The notes beneath the pieces are model-generated. The model was given only the letters and a program-made list of their open reading frames with translations, was not told where the DNA came from and made no database searches. DNA of 51,152 bases. It comes from Thermoanaerobaculia bacterium. Lineage in GTDB: Bacteria; Acidobacteriota; Thermoanaerobaculia; Gp7-AA8. Within the stretch, counting starts at the first letter, position 1, and each line of letters opens with the position of its first letter. The DNA lies in the NCBI GenBank assembly GCA_017883235.1, contig JADGNY010000036.1, forward strand, positions 1-51,152, read 5' to 3'. Below are positions 1-33,588 of the stretch, in pieces. A program made the translations under genes and the position numbers.

Positions 1-171
1 CGGAGGCAGTTAAACTGCCTCTCGGAGGCAGTTAATACGCTCCTGGAGGCGGTTAACACGCTCCCGGAGGCAGTTAAACTGCCTCTCGGAGGCAGTTAAC
101 ACGCTCTTGGGGGCAGTTAACACGCTCCCGGAGGCAGTTAACACGCTCTTGGAGGCAGTTAACTGCCTCTT
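1..171. repeat. 21-22 bp tandem repeat array
   Basis: Eight head-to-tail units of 21-22 bp with the consensus GGAGGCAGTTAACACGCTC can be read, and the array may continue to the left of the window. Each unit carries a GTTAAC palindrome or a GTTAAACTGCC variant. Units at 1, 66 and 151 carry a GGCAGTT(A)AACTGCC inverted repeat. The period is close to 21, so a frame through it gives a heptad repeat (EAVNTLL-like), but there is no plausible start signal or codon pattern. It is read as non-coding. Confidence 0.85.
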
Positions 172-196
172 AGAGCAGGCATCCTGCCTGCTCCGG

Positions 197-12735: not shown

Positions 12736-13671
12736 TTAATGCCGGCGCCCGAATCTACGCTCGATATTGAAGCCGAGATGAAGGTCGCTCTTGTTCAGTG
12801 GTGAGCCCTGATACGTCGACGTCACGTACTGGTCGACTTGTGTGGCGTTGCTGTTCGTTAGCAGGATCTCGAAGTAGTGCCCGCCGATGGCGCGCTTGAA
12901 TCCCAGCGCCCAGCCAAAATCCCCCCCCTTCGCCGACGACGGCAGGTCGCGGTTCTTCGGGATGAGCTCTGCCACCACGCTCAGCCCGGGCCGGATGATC
13001 ACCGCCGCGCCTACCGGCACATTCGCCGCGTGCTTGAACAGCGCCGTGGATGCGTTTCCGCTGACCGCGCGGCCGGCATTCGTTGCGTAGGTAGGGATCA
13101 GGAAGATCTCGGCGCGGCCGCCGAACTGCCGCGAGATGATCGCCTGCGCGAAGAACGACGTCCGGTCGATGATGCCGCGCTCCGTCCGCCAATCCATCCC
13201 CCCGCGCACCGCCAGCGAGAACGGGATCGCCGGCGCCTGCTGCACCACCACGTACTTGAGCGACGACTCGATGTCGTCGTTGACATTACTGCGCATGAAC
13301 GTCGCCTGCAGGTCGCGCGTGATCACGTACGAGAAGCCGATGCCGACGTCGGCATTGCTGTCCAGCCCATACAGCGAGTGCACCCGGTCGCTGAAGCTTC
13401 CTTGATCGATGGACTGGTTGAATCGATGGGTGAACTTCACCTCCCACGTCCCCTCGGTCGGGATATGCGACGTCGGAAGCGACAGCAGCGCATCGCCGAG
13501 CGGCACGGGACGGGAGGGGGTGTACGGGTTGGGCGCGGGCGCTTGCTCCTGTGCTGAAAGGCAGAAGGCAGAAAGCATCAGAAGGCAGAAGGCAGAAAGC
13601 AGAAGGCAGAAGGAGGCGGTTGCGCGGCCGCCGCATCTTTGTCGTCGATCCCGTGCTGTCTTGTGTTCCAT
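12736..13671 (-). CDS. DUF5777-type beta-barrel protein
   Basis: The 311-residue product has a signal peptide and then a body rich in alternating hydrophobic and polar strands: FTHRFNQ, LYGLDSNADVGIGFSYVITRDLQATFMRS, YVVVQQ, and a terminal HLGFNIERRFGR strand ending in an aromatic-type outer-membrane signature. This fits the DUF5777 family of presumed outer-membrane barrels. The signal peptide is encoded by the AGAAGGC repeat (13553-13612). The ATG at 13671 is chosen because longer starts overlap the upstream gene. It follows the lipoprotein gene at 13712 in the same orientation, as these genes commonly do. Confidence 0.7.
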   Translation of the reverse strand: MEHKTARDRRQRCGGRATASFCLLLSAFCLLMLSAFCLSAQEQAPAPNPYTPSRPVPLGDALLSLPTSHIPTEGTWEVKFTHRFNQSIDQGSFSDRVHSLYGLDSNADVGIGFSYVITRDLQATFMRSNVNDDIESSLKYVVVQQAPAIPFSLAVRGGMDWRTERGIIDRTSFFAQAIISRQFGGRAEIFLIPTYATNAGRAVSGNASTALFKHAANVPVGAAVIIRPGLSVVAELIPKNRDLPSSAKGGDFGWALGFKRAIGGHYFEILLTNSNATQVDQYVTSTYQGSPLNKSDLHLGFNIERRFGRRH

Positions 13672-13712
13672 CGTCCCCACTTCTGCTTTCTGCTTTCTGC
13701 TTTCTGCCTTCT
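13553..13712. repeat. Paired GCAGAAGGCAGAAAGC simple repeats in inverted orientation
   Basis: A run of GCAGAAGGCAGAAAGC-type 7 bp units at 13553-13612 is matched by the complementary TTCTGCTTTCTGCTTTCTGC run at 13680-13712. The 60-70 bp between them encodes the n-region of the DUF5777-type protein. An analogous but different simple repeat, CCAGAAACCAGAAAC, occurs as an inverted pair at 33465-33588. Confidence 0.8.
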
Positions 13713-23084: not shown

Positions 23085-24434
23085 CTATCGAATCGACTGC
23101 GTAAGCGACGTCTCTTTCTCGATCGACACCTTCCGCCAGTTGAATTCCGGTCCTGGTTCGATGCCCTTGAAGATCTCTTTGTCGTTGACGCGCTCGATGT
23201 CGATCTGCACGACGCGCTTCGCCGCCGGCGCGCCCGCCTCGAGCTCGCGGAGCCGGTCCGTGACGTCGAGAGCGACGTCAATCGTCGGCTCCTCGTCGTC
23301 GCCGTGATCATGATTGCTGCGCCAGGTCGTGAAGAACGTCAACTGTTCCGACTCCGTACGCGTCGCCGGATTGGAGCCGGCCGGGCGCAGATAGACGCGC
23401 ACGACGTACGACGCGTCGACCGGCCTGCTGACGCCGGTGAACCGCAGCACGATCCTCTCACCGGCAGCCGGCGGCGCGACATTGAAGGGCACTTCGACCA
23501 CGTGCGCGGCGCTCGGCATCGCGATCTTCAGCAGCGCCGGTCTCGCTTCTTTCTTCATTGCCGCTGCCTGGGCCAGCCCCTTGCCGGTGCACTGCTTCTG
23601 CTGCGGTTGATAGGTGTAATCGAGCCATGGTGAGGAGATGTCGGCGTAGTCGCCGGAGAGCTCATGCGGCATTCCCTTGCGAAAGTTGATCTTGAAATCT
23701 TTCTTGACCGGCCCCGGCTCGCGCCCACTTTTCCGCGCGGCGGTCTGGAATTCCGACCAGAGGCGGTCGAGGTTCGAGTGATGCCCCCAGAACAGCGGGT
23801 CGCGCGCGGCGTTCAGATTGCTCGCGTTGAGACCGCCTATGTACGCTCCGTGAATCGTGTTGTGCGGCTGGAGCTCGAGACTTCCAGCCGAGACCGCCAG
23901 CCCGCCGTATAAGGACCAGTCAGGGATCGCCTGGATCGAGGCGATGGTCTTCGCATCGAATGGCGCGGAGGGATGCGGCGTCGTGTTGCGGCACGTTGAC
24001 GGGGTAGGACAGTCGGTGCCGACCGGCAGGAGTCCCGGCAGGGTCTCGAACTGAATCGGATAGCGTACGCCCGTGGGCGGCTGGGTCCAATCCCAGTACG
24101 GTAGCGTGACATTCGCGGTGATTGGAGGATCGGAGGCGCGCAGGGCGTTCTCGAACCAGATCAGATACGCCCGATGCCACGGCCAGATCTGCTCGCTGCC
24201 GTGTTTGCACGGTCCGGTGGAGATCGGCATACCGCTGCCGTGGATCTGCGCCCAGCGGATGTAGTTATTCGGGTCGTCTTCTGGCAGCGCCTCCAGCTTC
24301 TGGAAGGCGTGATCGAGCGCGGTCCACTCGGCGTCGCTGAGGTCGCAGACATGCTTGCGCACGCGTGTCTGGGCGAATGCGGTGGCGACGAAAAGACAGA
24401 CTGCCAGGGTCGCAAAGAATCGTGCGGATCTCAT
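23085..24434 (-). CDS. Secreted tyrosinase / polyphenol oxidase
   Basis: The 449-residue protein has a cleavable signal peptide (LAVCLFVATAFA) and a type-3 copper centre. CuA ligands are H65 (QIHGSG), H78 (CKHGS) and H87 (PWHRAYLIWFE); CuB ligands are H191 and H195 (PHNTIHGAYIGG) and H218/H219 (DPLFWGHHSNLDRLW). Tyrosinases oxidise phenols to quinones. The C-terminal third is a beta-sandwich-like domain of the kind that covers the active site in plant-type polyphenol oxidases. The start has a GGAGT ribosome site. It is divergent from the D-aminoacylase-like gene. Confidence 0.9.
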   Translation of the reverse strand: MRSARFFATLAVCLFVATAFAQTRVRKHVCDLSDAEWTALDHAFQKLEALPEDDPNNYIRWAQIHGSGMPISTGPCKHGSEQIWPWHRAYLIWFENALRASDPPITANVTLPYWDWTQPPTGVRYPIQFETLPGLLPVGTDCPTPSTCRNTTPHPSAPFDAKTIASIQAIPDWSLYGGLAVSAGSLELQPHNTIHGAYIGGLNASNLNAARDPLFWGHHSNLDRLWSEFQTAARKSGREPGPVKKDFKINFRKGMPHELSGDYADISSPWLDYTYQPQQKQCTGKGLAQAAAMKKEARPALLKIAMPSAAHVVEVPFNVAPPAAGERIVLRFTGVSRPVDASYVVRVYLRPAGSNPATRTESEQLTFFTTWRSNHDHGDDEEPTIDVALDVTDRLRELEAGAPAAKRVVQIDIERVNDKEIFKGIEPGPEFNWRKVSIEKETSLTQSIR

Positions 24435-24539: not shown

Positions 24540-26216
24540 ATGAGAAATCTCCTCGCGATTGCGCTCCTTCTGCTCTCCGCCTGCGCGTCGACTTCGCCCC
24601 CACGCACTGACTACGACATCGTCCTCCGCCACGCCACCCTGTACGACGGAAGCGGGAAGGAGCCGGTCCACGGCGATCTCGCCATCCGCGGCGATCGCAT
24701 CGCCGCCCTCGGCGACGTGCACGGCCGCGGCGCGACGGAGATCGACGTCCACGATCTCGCCGTCGCCCCGGGATTCATCAACGTCATGAGCCAGGCCCAG
24801 GAATCGCTCATCGCCGACGGCCGCGGGCTCTCCGACACCAAGCAGGGCGTGACGACGGAAATCTTCGGCGAAGGGGAGTCGATGGGACCGCTCTCGCCCG
24901 TTATGAAGAAGGAGCTCGTCGACGGTCAGGCCGACATCAAATATCCGGTCGAGTGGACCACCCTTCGCGAGTACCTCGACTGGCTGCGTACGCGCGGCGT
25001 CACGCCGAACATCGGCTCCTTCCTCGGCGCCGCCACGCCGCGCGTCTACATCCTCGGCCGCGAGAACCGCGATCCCTCGCCAGCCGAGCTTCAGCAGATG
25101 CTGGCCGTCACCCGCAAAGCGATGGACGACGGCGCGTTCGGAGTGGCGTCGGCGCTCATCTACGCCCCCGGCGCCTATGCTAAGACCTATGAGCTGATCG
25201 CGCTGGCCAAGGTCGCCGGTGAGCACGGCGGCATCTACATCTCCCATATGCGCAGCGAGGGGAACCGCCTCGTCGAAGCGGTCGATGAGCTGATCACCAT
25301 CGCCCGCGAGGGACAGCTCCCCGCCGAGATCTACCACCTCAAAGCCGCCGGCCGCCCGAACTGGCCGAAGATGGATGAAGTCATCGCCCACGTGAACGCC
25401 GCCCGCACGGCCGGCCTGCAGATCTCCGCCGACATGTACACCTATACCGCCGGCATGACCGGCCTCGATGCGGCCATGCCGACATGGGTGCAGGCCGGCG
25501 GCTACGAAGCGTGGCGCAAACGCCTGCAGGATCCTGCTACGCGGCAGAGGGTGATCGCGGAGATGCGCACCCCCAGCGACAACTGGGAGAACCTGCTGCT
25601 CCTGGCCGGCGGCGCCGACCGCGTGCTGCTGGTCGGATTCAAGAGCGACGCCCTCAAGCCCCTCACCGGAAAGACGCTGGCCGAGGTGGCGAAGATGCGC
25701 GGCGTCTCCCCCGAGGATGCAGCCATCGATCTCGTCATCGAAGACGGCACCCGCATCAGCACGATCTACTTCCTGATGTCGGACGACAACCTGCGCAAGC
25801 AGATCGCGCTGCCCTACGTCTCCTTCGGCTCCGACGCCGACTCGTCCGCCCCCGAGGGGGTCTTCCTCAAGTCGTCGAACCACCCGCGCGCCTACGGCAA
25901 CTTCGCCAACCTCCTCGGCAGATACGTCCGCGACGAGCACGTGATCCCCCTCGCCGAGGCCGTACGCCGTATGACCTCCCTCCCGGCCCGGAACCTCGGC
26001 ATCGCCAACCGCGGCCTCCTCACCCCCGGCCACTTCGCCGACATCGTCGTCTTCGATCCCGCCACTATCGGCGCCCAATCGACCTACGAAAAGCCGATGC
26101 AATTCGCGACGGGCGTCATCGACGTCTTCATCAACGGCGTCGAGGTGCTGAAGGACGGCGAACACACGGGCGCGAAGCCGGGGAGGGTGGTAGTGAGGGA
26201 AAGGGGAGGGCGATGA
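24540..26216 (+). CDS. D-aminoacylase-like amidohydrolase lipoprotein with altered metal site
   Basis: The 558-residue product has a lipobox (LLSAC, C15) and the amidohydrolase fold of N-acyl-D-amino-acid deacylases: PGFINVMSQ at 78-86, then YISHMRSEG, EIYHLKAAG, ADMYTYTAGMTGLDAA, VSFGSDADS and the closing GHFADIVVFD. The canonical HxH metal pair after PGFID is absent (INVMSQ replaces IDVHTH), as in a known subfamily. Other His and Asp ligands persist, so a one-metal mechanism or altered substrate is likely. ATG 24540 is selected; upstream codons in frame lie in the divergent promoter region. Confidence 0.82.
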   Translation: MRNLLAIALLLLSACASTSPPRTDYDIVLRHATLYDGSGKEPVHGDLAIRGDRIAALGDVHGRGATEIDVHDLAVAPGFINVMSQAQESLIADGRGLSDTKQGVTTEIFGEGESMGPLSPVMKKELVDGQADIKYPVEWTTLREYLDWLRTRGVTPNIGSFLGAATPRVYILGRENRDPSPAELQQMLAVTRKAMDDGAFGVASALIYAPGAYAKTYELIALAKVAGEHGGIYISHMRSEGNRLVEAVDELITIAREGQLPAEIYHLKAAGRPNWPKMDEVIAHVNAARTAGLQISADMYTYTAGMTGLDAAMPTWVQAGGYEAWRKRLQDPATRQRVIAEMRTPSDNWENLLLLAGGADRVLLVGFKSDALKPLTGKTLAEVAKMRGVSPEDAAIDLVIEDGTRISTIYFLMSDDNLRKQIALPYVSFGSDADSSAPEGVFLKSSNHPRAYGNFANLLGRYVRDEHVIPLAEAVRRMTSLPARNLGIANRGLLTPGHFADIVVFDPATIGAQSTYEKPMQFATGVIDVFINGVEVLKDGEHTGAKPGRVVVRERGGR

Positions 26217-26275
26217 AGGACCCTGTCATCCTTAACCATTGATGCGCCGAACGATCTTTGGCGAACGGGCACTCA

Positions 26276-26627
26276 TACCATGGTAAGAGCGCGAGCATCG
26301 AAACGAAGCACGCGAGGGTCAAAATGAAGCGCGCGAGCATCGAAACGAAGCGCGCGGGGATCGAAATGAAGCGCGCCAGCCTCAAAATGAAGCACGCGAG
26401 GGCCGAATTGAAGCACGCGAGGGTTGAAATGAGGGTTAAATTCTTACCATGGTAAGAACGCATGGATAAAAATGAAGCAGCATGCATCGAAATGAAGCAT
26501 GCATGCTGTAGAATAGAGCATGCATGCTCATAAATGAAGCATGCGACGCTTGAAATGAAGCAGCACGGGGTCAGAACGAAGCGTGCGAGCATCAAAACGG
26601 AGCAGGTGCTCTTACCATGGTAAGAGC
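26276..26627. repeat. 21 bp tandem array punctuated by TTACCATGGTAA palindromes
   Basis: Three palindromes lie at 26276-26285 (core TACCATGGTA), 26441-26458 (18 bp perfect) and 26608-26627 (20 bp perfect: GCTCTTACCATGGTAAGAGC). Their centres are 169 and 168 bases apart, that is eight units of 21. Between them are 21 bp units: in the first block like GCGCGCGAGCATCGAAACGAA and in the second like AAATGAAGCATGCATGC. Several have GCATGC palindromes. Reading frames on both strands are open through the array (26258-26455 plus; 26131-26595 minus), giving seven-residue repeats, but there is no good start. It is probably not protein-coding; DNA or RNA binding is possible. The 148 bases after it up to 26775 hold nothing recognisable. 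Confidence 0.85.
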
Positions 26628-26775
26628 GGCCGTTCCAGGGTGGCGCAGGCGAGGTTCGAAACGACGAATACCAGGGCGAGAAGGCAAATGCTTACGCCTG
26701 ACGCGCGATGCCTGCAATGCGGTATGCAAGGTCACGCGCGGTGATCTTCGGACATCCAGCGGCTGATCGGCAGGA

Positions 26776-27408
26776 TCAAGAGTGTGGAGTTGACTCAGGA
26801 GTGCGCCTCAGCCACCGCGCGATCGTGTACGAGAAGTCCGCGAACGCAAGATGCGCGAGGTCGAGTTCCAATTCGACACAAATCGCAGGCAGCTCGGCTC
26901 TGAACTTCTCGTAGCGGTCGTAGATTGCCGCTCCGCCCGGGATGTCGTCTCTGTCTGTCTCCGTGCGGAGCCAATCGCGAACATGCGTCACTGCGGCCTT
27001 CGGACTGTTGGCGTGCTGGTGAAGGTCTTGTCCGCTGATGTCCGAAACGTACTTCTGGAATTGGTACTGTTCGGAGTCGAAGATGAGAAACGACTTGTCG
27101 GCGCAGTCGGGGTTGAATGCTTTGCAGCCGAGGTCAATCCCAAGCTCCAGCGGCATGTTGAATCGGGGAAGGGAGGTCCTCTCGTCAAGCGCCGTTCGGG
27201 AAAGATCGTGGATCGAGTAGCGGGAGGCAGAGATCAACTCGACGATCTTGTACAGCCGTACCTGGCTCGAATCGAGACGCTCGCGCGCACACTTCGGGCG
27301 GAAGCCGGCGTCGTTGATGGCGAAGACGATCGCCTCAAACAGTGGCGCGTAGTCGTCGTCGAAGGGGCAGTTAATGAATACGTTTCTCTCGTACTCGTCG
27401 TGACGCAT
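26776..27408 (-). CDS. Uncharacterised NCPFDD-type protein (possible TIR-like fold)
   Basis: The 210-residue product has no signal peptide. It opens with a beta-strand and signature RNVFINCPFDDDYAPLFEA, followed by RLDSSQVRLYKIVELISASRYSIHDLSR, RFNMPLELGIDLGCK and FLIFDSEQYQFQKYVSDISGQDL. I recognise a widespread hypothetical family with this pattern; alternate strands and helices suggest a TIR-like or nucleoside-deoxyribosyltransferase-like fold, but no catalytic residue has been assigned and this is inference. The gene starts 11 bases after the small protein gene at 27420 ends, so the two form a unit that resembles a toxin-antitoxin or defence pair. Confidence 0.6.
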   Translation of the reverse strand: MRHDEYERNVFINCPFDDDYAPLFEAIVFAINDAGFRPKCARERLDSSQVRLYKIVELISASRYSIHDLSRTALDERTSLPRFNMPLELGIDLGCKAFNPDCADKSFLIFDSEQYQFQKYVSDISGQDLHQHANSPKAAVTHVRDWLRTETDRDDIPGGAAIYDRYEKFRAELPAICVELELDLAHLAFADFSYTIARWLRRTPESTPHS

Positions 27409-27419
27409 CGCGACGACCG

Positions 27420-27623
27420 CTACTTCCTCCGCGAGATCACGAGGTCGATGGCACGATCGATCTTCTCGCGAGGGATGGTGGTCGGCTCGGTGGGAAAGAG
27501 GATTTCGCGGCGGGTGCCTTTGAATGACCCCTCGTCTGTATCGCGCTGTACGAACTCTCCGCTAACACTCGAACGGTCGCGAACGGCACTTCTGCGAGCG
27601 CTACCATCTGGATTCTTCGCCAT
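27420..27623 (-). CDS. Small protein of the FPTEP family, copy 1
   Basis: The 67-residue product starts at ATG 27623 (MAKNPDGSARRSAV). The last 30 residues are conserved with the copy at 28624: ILFPTEPTTIPRE followed by KIDRAIDLVISRRK. The N-terminal half is basic, variable and probably disordered. It is the upstream partner of the NCPFDD-type gene (11 base gap). It has the size and charge of an antitoxin or adaptor but no known DNA-binding fold. Confidence 0.65.
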   Translation of the reverse strand: MAKNPDGSARRSAVRDRSSVSGEFVQRDTDEGSFKGTRREILFPTEPTTIPREKIDRAIDLVISRRK

Positions 27624-27981
27624 GAGCCTGATCTCCACTCTTCGTGTCGGACATCGAAACGTCCGGTGACCGACGGACATTCTAACCCCTGGGGGACCTG
27701 AAGAGCGGGAAGACCGGATGCGGTAATGAACATCACAGGGAGATTCACTTGGGTCAAGCCTTCGTTCTTGGCAAGCGGGTAAGCCTATGAAATGAAGTGA
27801 CTTGTCGAAGGATGTTCCAGCCTCCAGACAACGTGATCATTTATTTGTTGCGAGCCATGGCGGGAGGTTCCCGGTCTGAAGGGCATGGAGGGGCAGAGAA
27901 TCTGGTCGTCGCGGAGAGGATCGAACGCTTGCGCCAACCGCAGTATCCTGCTATATGTGCATACGACGGGAAGGAGGACGA
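27624..27981. other. Divergent intergenic region
   Basis: No gene was found in this 358 bp spacer between the small FPTEP gene (minus) and vapB (plus). The vapBC promoter sits at its right end (27929-27957). Otherwise nothing is recognisable; longer frames across it are shadows. Confidence 0.6.
27929..27957 (+). promoter_or_regulatory. Probable sigma-70 promoter of vapBC
   Basis: TTGCGC (27929-27934) and TATATG (27952-27957) are separated by 17 bases, the ideal spacing. A start near 27964 leaves a short leader with AAGGAGG (27971-27977) before vapB ATG 27982. The promoter is close to the coding start, as in autoregulated toxin-antitoxin operons. Confidence 0.5.
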
Positions 27982-28206
27982 ATGCCCCAGCTACACCTGT
28001 ACGTTTCTGATGAAGTCGCGGAGGCGGCGAAGTCCAGAGCAAAGGCCGCTGGGAAATCGCTCTCCTCGTACTTGGCCGACCTCGTCGTCGATGAAGTGGC
28101 TGGCGAGTGGCCGGAAGGCTTCTTCGAGGAGGTCGTCGGTGGATGGAAAGGGGAGCCGCTGGAGCGGCCGAAGCAGGGGCGCGCCGAGCGCCGTGATCGT
28201 TTCTAG
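27982..28206 (+). CDS. vapB: VapB-type antitoxin
   Basis: The 74-residue product begins QLHLYVSDEVAEAAKSRAKA, the ribbon-helix-helix/Arc-like DNA-binding start typical of antitoxins, with the hydrophobic turn GKSLSSYLADLVVDEV. The C-terminal half (EWPEGFFEEVVGGWKGEPLERP) would wrap around the toxin. ATG 27982 has a strong AAGGAGG. It ends two bases before the toxin start. Confidence 0.8.
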   Translation: MPQLHLYVSDEVAEAAKSRAKAAGKSLSSYLADLVVDEVAGEWPEGFFEEVVGGWKGEPLERPKQGRAERRDRF

Positions 28207-28208
28207 CG

Positions 28209-28610
28209 ATGTATCTGCTCGACACGAACGCCTGCATTCGTATCCTCAACGGAACTTCACCCTCTCTGGCCGAGCGGTTGCGGTTCATTCCACGTTCGCA
28301 GTTGAGGCTCTCCTCGGTCGTGAAAGGCGAGCTTCTCTACGGTGCGAGGAAGAGCAAGCGGGTCGCTGAGAACCTGCGGCTTCTGGAGCGATTCTTCGAC
28401 TCGGTCGCGAGCCTTCCCTTCGACGATGGCTGCGCCGAGGAGTATGGTCTCCTTCGGGAGGAACTCGATCGCGCGGGAACACCGATCGGAGCGAACGACA
28501 TGCTGATCGCTGCTACGGCCCGCGTCCACCATGCGGTACTCGTCACGCACAACGTTCGGGAGTTCTCGCGCGTCGCGGGCTTGCGCCTAGAAGATTGGGA
28601 GTCGCGCTAA
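28209..28610 (+). CDS. vapC: VapC-type PIN-domain ribonuclease toxin
   Basis: The 133-residue PIN domain carries the acidic metal-binding residues D5 (MYLLDTN), E41 (VVKGELLYGA) and D97 (IGANDMLIAA), plus a C-terminal VTHNVREFSRV in which N115 replaces the usual fourth acidic position, a common variant. VapC toxins cleave tRNA or rRNA and are neutralised by VapB. The pair appears intact and translationally close. Confidence 0.88.
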   Translation: MYLLDTNACIRILNGTSPSLAERLRFIPRSQLRLSSVVKGELLYGARKSKRVAENLRLLERFFDSVASLPFDDGCAEEYGLLREELDRAGTPIGANDMLIAATARVHHAVLVTHNVREFSRVAGLRLEDWESR

Positions 28611-28623
28611 GACGTGGAGGCCG

Positions 28624-28794
28624 CTACTTCCTGCGCGAGATCACGAGGTCGATGGCTCGGTTGATCTCTTCGCGAGGGATCGTGGTCGGTTCGGTGGGGA
28701 AGAGGATTTTGCGGCGGGGACGTTTGGGTCGCGAGGCAGTGCGTTGGCCGGCGGTGTCGTCGTGCTTTACGTCTTGCGTTTGTTTCTTTGCCAT
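28624..28794 (-). CDS. Small protein of the FPTEP family, copy 2 (no partner)
   Basis: The 56-residue product starts at ATG 28794 (MAKKQTQDVKHDDTA). Its C-terminal 30 residues match those of the 27420 gene (ILFPTEPTTIPREE then INRAIDLVISRRK), and the corresponding DNA is about 90 percent identical by eye over roughly 105 bases, extending to just past the stop. No NCPFDD-type gene follows it: the vapC gene, on the other strand, ends 14 bases away. It is thus a partner-less copy, perhaps an immunity or decoy version. The start is 36 bases from that of the 28831 gene (divergent). Confidence 0.65.
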   Translation of the reverse strand: MAKKQTQDVKHDDTAGQRTASRPKRPRRKILFPTEPTTIPREEINRAIDLVISRRK

Positions 28795-28830
28795 CGTGCT
28801 CTTATCCTGTTCGGACGACGGTAACGACAA

Positions 28831-29007
28831 ATGAGTGACGATCAGTCTAACTCGGGTGGGCCGCACGACCACGACGACAGTTATGACGATTCTGTGCCGC
28901 CGATCTGGCAGTCGATCATCGAGCTTGGCTCGAGTCTACCGGCGGAAGAGTGGGATCGCATTCCGACGGATTTTGCGGCGAACCTTCATCGATATCTCTA
29001 CGGATGA
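28831..29007 (+). CDS. Small antitoxin-like protein without toxin
   Basis: The 58-residue product begins MSDDQSNSGGPHDHDDSYD and ends with VPPIWQSIIELGSSLPAEEW, then DRIPTDFAANLHRYLYG. The conserved-looking tail (PIWxxIxExxxxxPxEEWxxxPxD...YLYG) is one that I recall from small proteins upstream of PIN-domain toxins. No toxin gene follows; a family 2 repeat element begins 28 bases after the stop. The gene is too short to appear in ordinary ORF lists. It is acidic, like many antitoxins. Family assignment is tentative. Confidence 0.5.
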   Translation: MSDDQSNSGGPHDHDDSYDDSVPPIWQSIIELGSSLPAEEWDRIPTDFAANLHRYLYG

Positions 29008-33464: not shown

Positions 33465-33588
33465 GTCGGGGGTCGGCCAAAACCAGAAACCAGAAACTAG
33501 AAACCAGAATGCTGCGCTCCACCGTCGTTTCTGGTTTCTGGTTTCTGGTTTCTGGTTTCTGGTTTTGCCCGACCCCCGGCCCCCGACT
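33465..33588. repeat. Inverted repeat of CCAGAAAC units
   Basis: GGCCAAAACCAGAAACCAG-type units at the left (33465-33510) and complementary GTTTCTGGTTTCTGG units at the right (33528-33570) are flanked by AGTCGGGGGTC and GACCCCCGGCCCCCGACT. Together they form a 124 bp imperfect hairpin with a short centre. It is the same kind of simple-repeat pair as at 13553-13712, but with a different unit. Confidence 0.75.

Follow-up and report, generated by a model that had tools for sequence, protein, structure and literature searches.

The palindrome array described here is probably one member of a dispersed, intergenic family of predicted binding-site arrays for a presumably self-regulated, C-protein-like regulator of the XRE/Cro type, encoded on contig C105 of the same genome. 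As palindromes of the same kind stand before this small regulator gene, the array is probably a landing strip for the regulator rather than a random repeat. It lies in a window of 51,152 nucleotides – contig C25 of the 6.9-Mb genome of a Thermoanaerobaculia bacterium (G000), assembled in 246 contigs.

Layout of the array and the phase rule

Three palindromes centred on CCATGG – TACCATGGTA, TTCTTACCATGGTAAGAA and GCTCTTACCATGGTAAGAGC, with centres at 26280, 26449 and 26617 – stand 169 and 168 bp apart and grow from 10 to 18 to 20 bp, just as an earlier note, made from the window's letters, had described them (Table 1). The blocks between them, again as that note had it, differ in sequence and keep the 21-bp period throughout; judged by eye from the list of their units, neither block seems to be a copy of the other. 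Of five perfect palindromes of at least 16 bp in the window, two come from the array. The same note's remark that both strands stay free of stops was mistaken, since a single frame of the six is open over 26276-26627, the other five holding 3, 9, 7, 5 and 3 stops.

Table 1. Positions of the array, its parts, the genes on either side of it and the candidate regulator gene; positions refer to the window unless a contig is named.
Feature	Position	Strand	Remarks
Whole array (query)	26262-26640		Three palindromes, with two blocks of seven 21-bp units in between
Palindromic site 1, CTCATACCATGGTAAGAG	26272-26289		10-bp perfect core TACCATGGTA at 26276-26285
Spacer block 1	26290-26440	+	21-bp units of type AAAYGAAGCRCGCGAGSRTCG
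Palindromic site 2, TTCTTACCATGGTAAGAA	26441-26458		Perfect over 18 bp
Spacer block 2	26459-26607	+	21-bp units; GCATGC-centred palindromes in some (26496-26507, 26516-26529)
Palindromic site 3, GCTCTTACCATGGTAAGAGC	26608-26627		Perfect over 20 bp
Amidohydrolase-family gene	24597-26216	+	3' end toward array; Pfam PF01979/PF07969; relatives in 15 of 18 genomes; start chosen by hand (longest ORF begins at 24174)
Gene for a 210-aa protein	26776-27408	-	3' end toward array; no Pfam match
Small XRE gene (88 aa)	G000 C105:2673-2936		Promoter region carries window-type palindromes

The earlier note read the spacing as a higher-order repeat of eight units (168 bp), which describes the window's two intervals but fails elsewhere: among 43 intervals between neighbouring sites at 13 loci – nine in the window's own genome and four in G002, a genome of the same genus – five measure 168 or 169 bp and two more 171 bp. 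A fixed eight-unit repeat is rejected, because the number of 21-bp units between palindromes varies among the loci from 0 to 8. What persists is the phase. Exactly 21k+1 bp is found in 32 of the 43 intervals and 21k+0 to 21k+2 in 39, the remaining four being 21k+3 (three) and 21k+6 (one); random spacing in relatives, which had been named beforehand as the result that would sink the proposal, is not what these intervals display. The palindrome thus counts as a 22-bp unit within a lattice of 21-bp units, and the rule reads 22 + 21k bp with k variable, the range of k just given being exceeded only in one 384-bp interval that holds further, more diverged sites missed by the search. The nominal p value of 7e-29 overstates the rule, because the loci are partly copies of each other; when they are pooled into six layout groups of presumed copies – a grouping that reflects our own judgement of layout – it still holds for 21 of 24 distinct interval values. 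The count covers sites with a neighbour and thereby leaves aside C6, C40, C60, C96 and C100 in G000, C47, C48 and C65 in G002, and two places in G001, another genome of the genus. Twenty-one base pairs correspond to two helical turns at 10.5 bp per turn, and at that pitch, by simple arithmetic, sites spaced by 21k+1 depart from a common face by no more than roughly one tenth of a turn, even when they are 169 bp apart.

Dispersal in the genome and its relatives

When used as a query against its own genome, the array finds matches at E < 1e-6 on at least 21 contigs, a count based on scoring 40 of 42 initial candidates. One copy (C44:85882-86249) is 85% identical over query positions 3-369 and carries three palindromes at 169 and 169 bp; in the alignment of the window with this copy, identity is 96% in the palindromes, 82% in the spacers and 64% in the surroundings. 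Three to five palindromes are carried by the arrays on C22, C74, C87, C88, C137 and C231, while C14, C130, C140, C81, C238, C68 and C48 have arrays of many near-identical 21-bp units devoid of palindromes. Altogether, 13 of the 21 array contigs have no palindrome within three mismatches, so the regulator model leaves those arrays unexplained. A long uniform array of the unit GCGCGCGAGCTAGGAAACGTA on C28 of G002 (L038) is the counterpart, in that genome, of the palindrome-free arrays.

Matches to the motif CTCTTNCCATGGTAAGAG with up to three mismatches exceed chance in the window's own genome, with 39 forward and 42 reverse matches where the reversed pattern, as control, gives 3 and 4. The same search is less clear in the genus mate G002 (20 and 14 matches, control 7 and 7), and in G001 the 1 and 2 matches fall below the control (7 and 5). 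The CC..GG frame is invariant in all 39 G000 sites compared, which were themselves selected with up to three mismatches; this comparison took in C40 as the only single site of G000 and, in G002, set aside three singles and three sites on C88.

Beyond the genus, the arrays fade. Among 40 genomes searched with the array at E up to 0.001, four matched (G000, G002, G020 and G023), the last two with one 42-bp match each, of which the one inspected (L039) lies in sequence lacking a 21-bp array. A strict 31-base array pattern had no match in a genome-contig collection from which near relatives are possibly absent. The search of related genomes that the earlier note had advised did bring results: both the palindrome and the 21-bp period recur at four loci of G002. 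Of 148 genomes of the class, G000 has the exact site CTCTTNCCNNGGNAAGAG 15 times, G002 seven times and two others a single time each, while the remaining 144 lack it. Its listed places in G000 and G002, compared with the array and promoter positions, lie within arrays or before the regulator gene, and it recurs within a genome in these two of the 148 only – both of which have C105-type genes. Coming from two positive genomes of one genus, this co-occurrence of site and regulator is consistent with the proposal and lends it weak support.

The window-type array is absent from the G002 gap syntenic to the window gap. Present there are palindromes of the TGTCCATGGACA type, like the sites before a regulator gene on C5 of G002; this likeness comes from reading the sequences, since the gap was not among the matches of a homology search with the C5 promoter. 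Elsewhere, the C5-type array of G002 gave only short, weak matches, on three other contigs. The same genome also contains a short repeat of about 30 bp, unrelated to the arrays, with dozens of matches across contigs (mostly to query positions 77-126 of L134:2133-2760).

A small regulator gene with the same sites

The earlier note had recommended searching for a DNA-binding gene that co-occurs with the array. Such a gene, the small XRE gene on C105, has the same palindromes in its promoter and makes that note's guess of a protein scaffold a good one, on the premise – likely, in our view – that the regulator binds these palindromes. The C105 promoter contains eight CCWWGG sites in 400 bp, six of them of the window array's type, and such palindromes are also found just upstream of the G002 relatives on C88 (71% identity) and C103 (73%). 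At least two CCWWGG sites, and up to 10, occur within 400 bp upstream of 15 of 16 close relatives from five genomes, where the window's rate would predict about 0.23; the exception – G002 C73, the best relative by identity (78%) – has a single one. As the motif was chosen after the first promoters had been inspected, the weight lies not on the count itself but on the controls: among 20 other XRE genes of G000 (drawn from 29 matches, that is, 33 less C105, C38, C8 and C79), none has two CCWWGG sites upstream and three have one, and five weaker relatives have none.

The flanks of the sites vary between paralogues (for example ATCCATGGAT, TTGCCATGGCAA, GCCATGGACACTTGAG and AACCAAGG), and the phase recurs: across 15 promoters, counting sites as far as 700 bp upstream, intervals of 21k or 21k+1 make up 64 of 82. 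Outside the rule fall G011 C408 and G001 C223, each with two sites 27 bp apart. Relatives found with the family profile at E up to 1e-18 are confined to five of the 148 class genomes, all of one family; G001 has only more distant ones (57% at best), with other sites, none of the CTCTTNCCNNGGNAAGAG type. Among the four longer spacers in the promoter of C105, three are more similar to the 21-bp unit than their shuffles are (uncorrected p 0.003, 0.03 and 0.022; the fourth 0.298), which is why the dispersed arrays may have descended from the regulator's own operator region. The promoters of three regulator paralogues (G000 C8, G002 C31 and G002 C3; L139, L140 and L142) contain related repeats, 42-43 bp long and bearing GCCATGGACACTTGAG, with 69-72% identity where they match, and the C8-type array has a second G000 copy at C6:41831-42174.

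All 16 family members match Pfam HTH_31 and HTH_3. Searched against solved structures, the family profile retrieves first C.AhdI (E 9.5e-13) and then C.BclI (3.9e-12); a fold search with the predicted structure of the C105 protein (mean pLDDT 80.8) places ClgR first, followed by C.BclI, another XRE protein, C.Esp1396I and C.AhdI. NCBIfam matches of the C105 protein all fall below the cut-offs, an antitoxin (hipB-like) model being on top. Pfam searches of six regulator neighbours (both at C105, and one each at C103, C88, C3 and C73 of G002) gave ABC, SpoIIE, GH1, ABC, bPH_2 and GyrB, with no restriction-modification gene among them. Judged by these resemblances, the C105 protein looks as if it works as a C protein, yet it is not filed as one.

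Proposed mechanism and genomic context

We propose that each palindrome CTCTTNCCWWGGNAAGAG is a dimer site of the C105 regulator, whose predicted target is CTCTTACCATGGTAAGAG. Because 21 bp make two turns, the units between sites would align successive dimers along very nearly the same face of the helix, where they could bind cooperatively or loop. A regulator gene with an array of its own sites in its promoter would be expected to regulate itself. The dispersed copies – at the window, between two gene ends – would most likely act as multi-site nucleoprotein blocks, that is, as transcription roadblocks or architectural sites, and also as a sink setting the level of free regulator. That the dispersed arrays have a working role at all is a tentative suggestion, to which we give rather less than even weight.

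The window copy has no neighbouring promoter to control: the 3' ends of both neighbouring genes face the array, making the gap convergent. An operator for the promoter of either neighbour was considered and ruled out at this locus, since both genes end there. Both flanks could be called for seven palindrome arrays, of which three are convergent (C25, C22 and C87), four tandem (C44, C74, C88 and C137) and none divergent – gene ends having been taken from our own codon-score script rather than a curated gene finder. On C88, the right-hand ORF touching the array edge is a DUF2238 gene (2.4e-57), hence the tandem assignment. The palindrome loci on C231 and C40 stop at contig ends and stay outside this count, as do C27, C238, C158, C68 and C245. 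These contexts give no sign of promoter control and fit a roadblock or a sink, or equally a harmless site for a spreading repeat.

A broader picture, which we offer as speculation and think rather unlikely in its entirety, would have an orphan family of controller-type regulators within one Acidobacteriota family, each paralogue with its own palindrome 'address' around the shared CC..GG core, and phased arrays seeded as programmable sites of silencing or architecture; address systems would then swap at the same intergenic positions between species, as with the window array and the TGTCCATGGACA-type palindromes of the G002 gap. If true, dispersed, phase-locked operator arrays together with a diversifying family of tiny regulators would show a bacterium spreading binding sites for its own proteins by an unusual route. 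An anonymous intergenic repeat becomes a testable protein-DNA pair, with natural data on XRE proteins that change site specificity while the CC..GG core stays, and with the question whether such arrays are selfish by-products or working chromatin.

Comparison with known systems

C proteins sit in restriction-modification operons and usually have two operator sites. Those closest to our case – C.AhdI, C.BclI, C.Esp1396I and C.Csp231I – are small XRE dimers and, as in the C105 family, have palindromic sites upstream of their own genes. The C105 family differs in having up to 10 sites in 400 bp, a CCWWGG core, sites dispersed to other intergenic loci and, among the six neighbours checked, neither a restriction nor a methylation gene. 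A precedent for spacing that matters comes from C.Csp231I, which, according to the accessible part of the report, recognises CTAAGN5CTTAG at two sites separated by 18 bp: once the spacer is shortened by 6 bp the second dimer no longer binds, whereas randomising 12 bp of its sequence has no such effect, so that spacer length, not sequence, decides the joint binding of the two dimers (PMC4321490).

The stoperators of cluster A mycobacteriophages, in the excerpts available to us, are repressor sites in promoters and short intergenic spaces, proposed to halt both initiation and elongation (PMC9283540). The window-type arrays share this combination of promoter and intergenic positions, and their suggested part as roadblock or sink is drawn by analogy (PMC9283540). 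Stoperators, as far as those excerpts describe them, are asymmetric 13-mers, bound by a two-domain monomer and oriented with transcription, whereas the window arrays are near-symmetric 18-mers, phased and located on a bacterial chromosome.

The earlier note had held that neither CRISPR nor REP elements have this layout, and neither reading finds support. The units follow one another directly, are degenerate and turn up again at other loci, with no unique spacers between repeats as in CRISPR. Plasmid-origin iterons are direct repeats spaced by roughly two turns of the helix and recognised by a replication protein; the window-type arrays differ in being spread over more than 20 contigs of a genome of 6.9 Mb. 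REP elements (GTAG/CGTC families), on the available portion of the source, are dispersed extragenic palindromes, often clustered (PMC3733652). Set against that account, the window-type consensus CTCTTNCCATGGTAAGAG has no GTAG or CGTC tag (PMC3733652), keeps a 21-bp register and also stands before an XRE gene. Judged by titles and the openings of abstracts, the literature searched contained no description of such arrays.

Alternative explanations

The strongest alternative, which we consider possible though unlikely, is a selfish or neutral minisatellite: copies of the operator region and its spacers, multiplied through duplication and gene conversion but idle today, would have inherited phase and palindromes from a parent array. 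Several loci share layouts (169/169, 169/168 and 169/148, and 43/106 in C87, C88 and C137), as copying would produce, and the 13 of 21 array contigs that lack a palindrome, the mixed gene context (three convergent, four tandem and no divergent arrays out of seven) and the missing array in the syntenic G002 gap all sit well with it. An idle repeat accounts less well for the palindromes being better kept than the spacers between C25 and C44 (96% compared with 82%), for the CC..GG frame being invariant in all 39 selected sites, and for the same phase recurring in paralogue promoters whose sites have different flanks.

Far less probable is a partition or nucleoid-organising site (similar to parS, SlmA or Noc sites) read by the XRE protein, a reading suggested by dispersed palindrome arrays for which a small DNA-binding protein is a candidate partner. 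Most of the class, 144 of 148 genomes, lacks the exact site, unlike what is known of core segregation sites, and the six regulator neighbours tested include no ParA-type partner.

The earlier note also suggested a source of phased RNA hairpins; this, or a non-coding RNA, we regard as very improbable. Both strands do fold much more stably than shuffled sequences (z -8.83 and -8.71), but near-equal folding on both strands is expected of any palindrome array. The pair at palindrome positions 6 and 13 is not kept, G002 sites having a Watson-Crick pair in 1 of 15 and T-T, C-T or A-A in 13 of 15. The window contains no Rfam family at gathering score – at E up to 1, the one sub-threshold match lies outside the array – and one promoter-like match (0.3 expected) and no terminator (0.8 expected) were found.

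The remaining candidate, a coding sequence for a repeat protein with heptapeptide repeats (21 bp being seven codons), can be given hardly any credence: two of three forward frames are open in several palindrome-free arrays (L092, L014, L087, L089 and L090; also L078), one minus frame runs open through the window array, and two of six frames have a synonymous excess (167 where 107.4, and 195 where 139.2, would be expected, of 460 differences), but the forward frames of the window array hold 2, 9 and 6 stops, the 22-bp palindrome units shift the frame, L094, L082 and L085 having units in each of the three phases, and the excess is largely due to C/T and G/A substitutions at positions 5 and 11 of the unit, probably of the CpG type. 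With forward-frame stops and frame changes at several loci, and that one minus frame open at the window locus, no conserved open frame runs through the arrays; a translated product, which the earlier note had said would overturn its reading, is thus not indicated at the window locus as far as frames can tell.

Other features of the window

A second array, similar in habit but of other sequence, occupies window positions 1-172. It consists of units of 20-22 bp like CGGAGGCAGTTAACACGCTCC (21 bp) with two palindrome-like 22-bp units, CGGAGGCAGTTAAACTGCCTCT, and ends in a perfect 18-bp palindrome, GAGGCAGTTAACTGCCTC; it may belong to another regulator. Inverted pairs of runs of 7-bp repeats, from which long hairpins could form, are found at 13558-13712 (AAACCAG.../...GTTTCTG) and 33480-33565 (AGAAGGC.../...TTCTGCT). 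Two short ORFs on the minus strand (27420-27680 and 28624-28872) have the C-terminal sequence ILFPTEPTTIPRE.I.RAIDLVISRRK in common, with no Pfam match and with similar DNA on C50 of G002. Between them, the plus-strand gene at 28209-28610 encodes a PIN-domain protein and, with a small ORF just upstream (27955-28206), possibly forms a toxin-antitoxin pair of the VapBC type.
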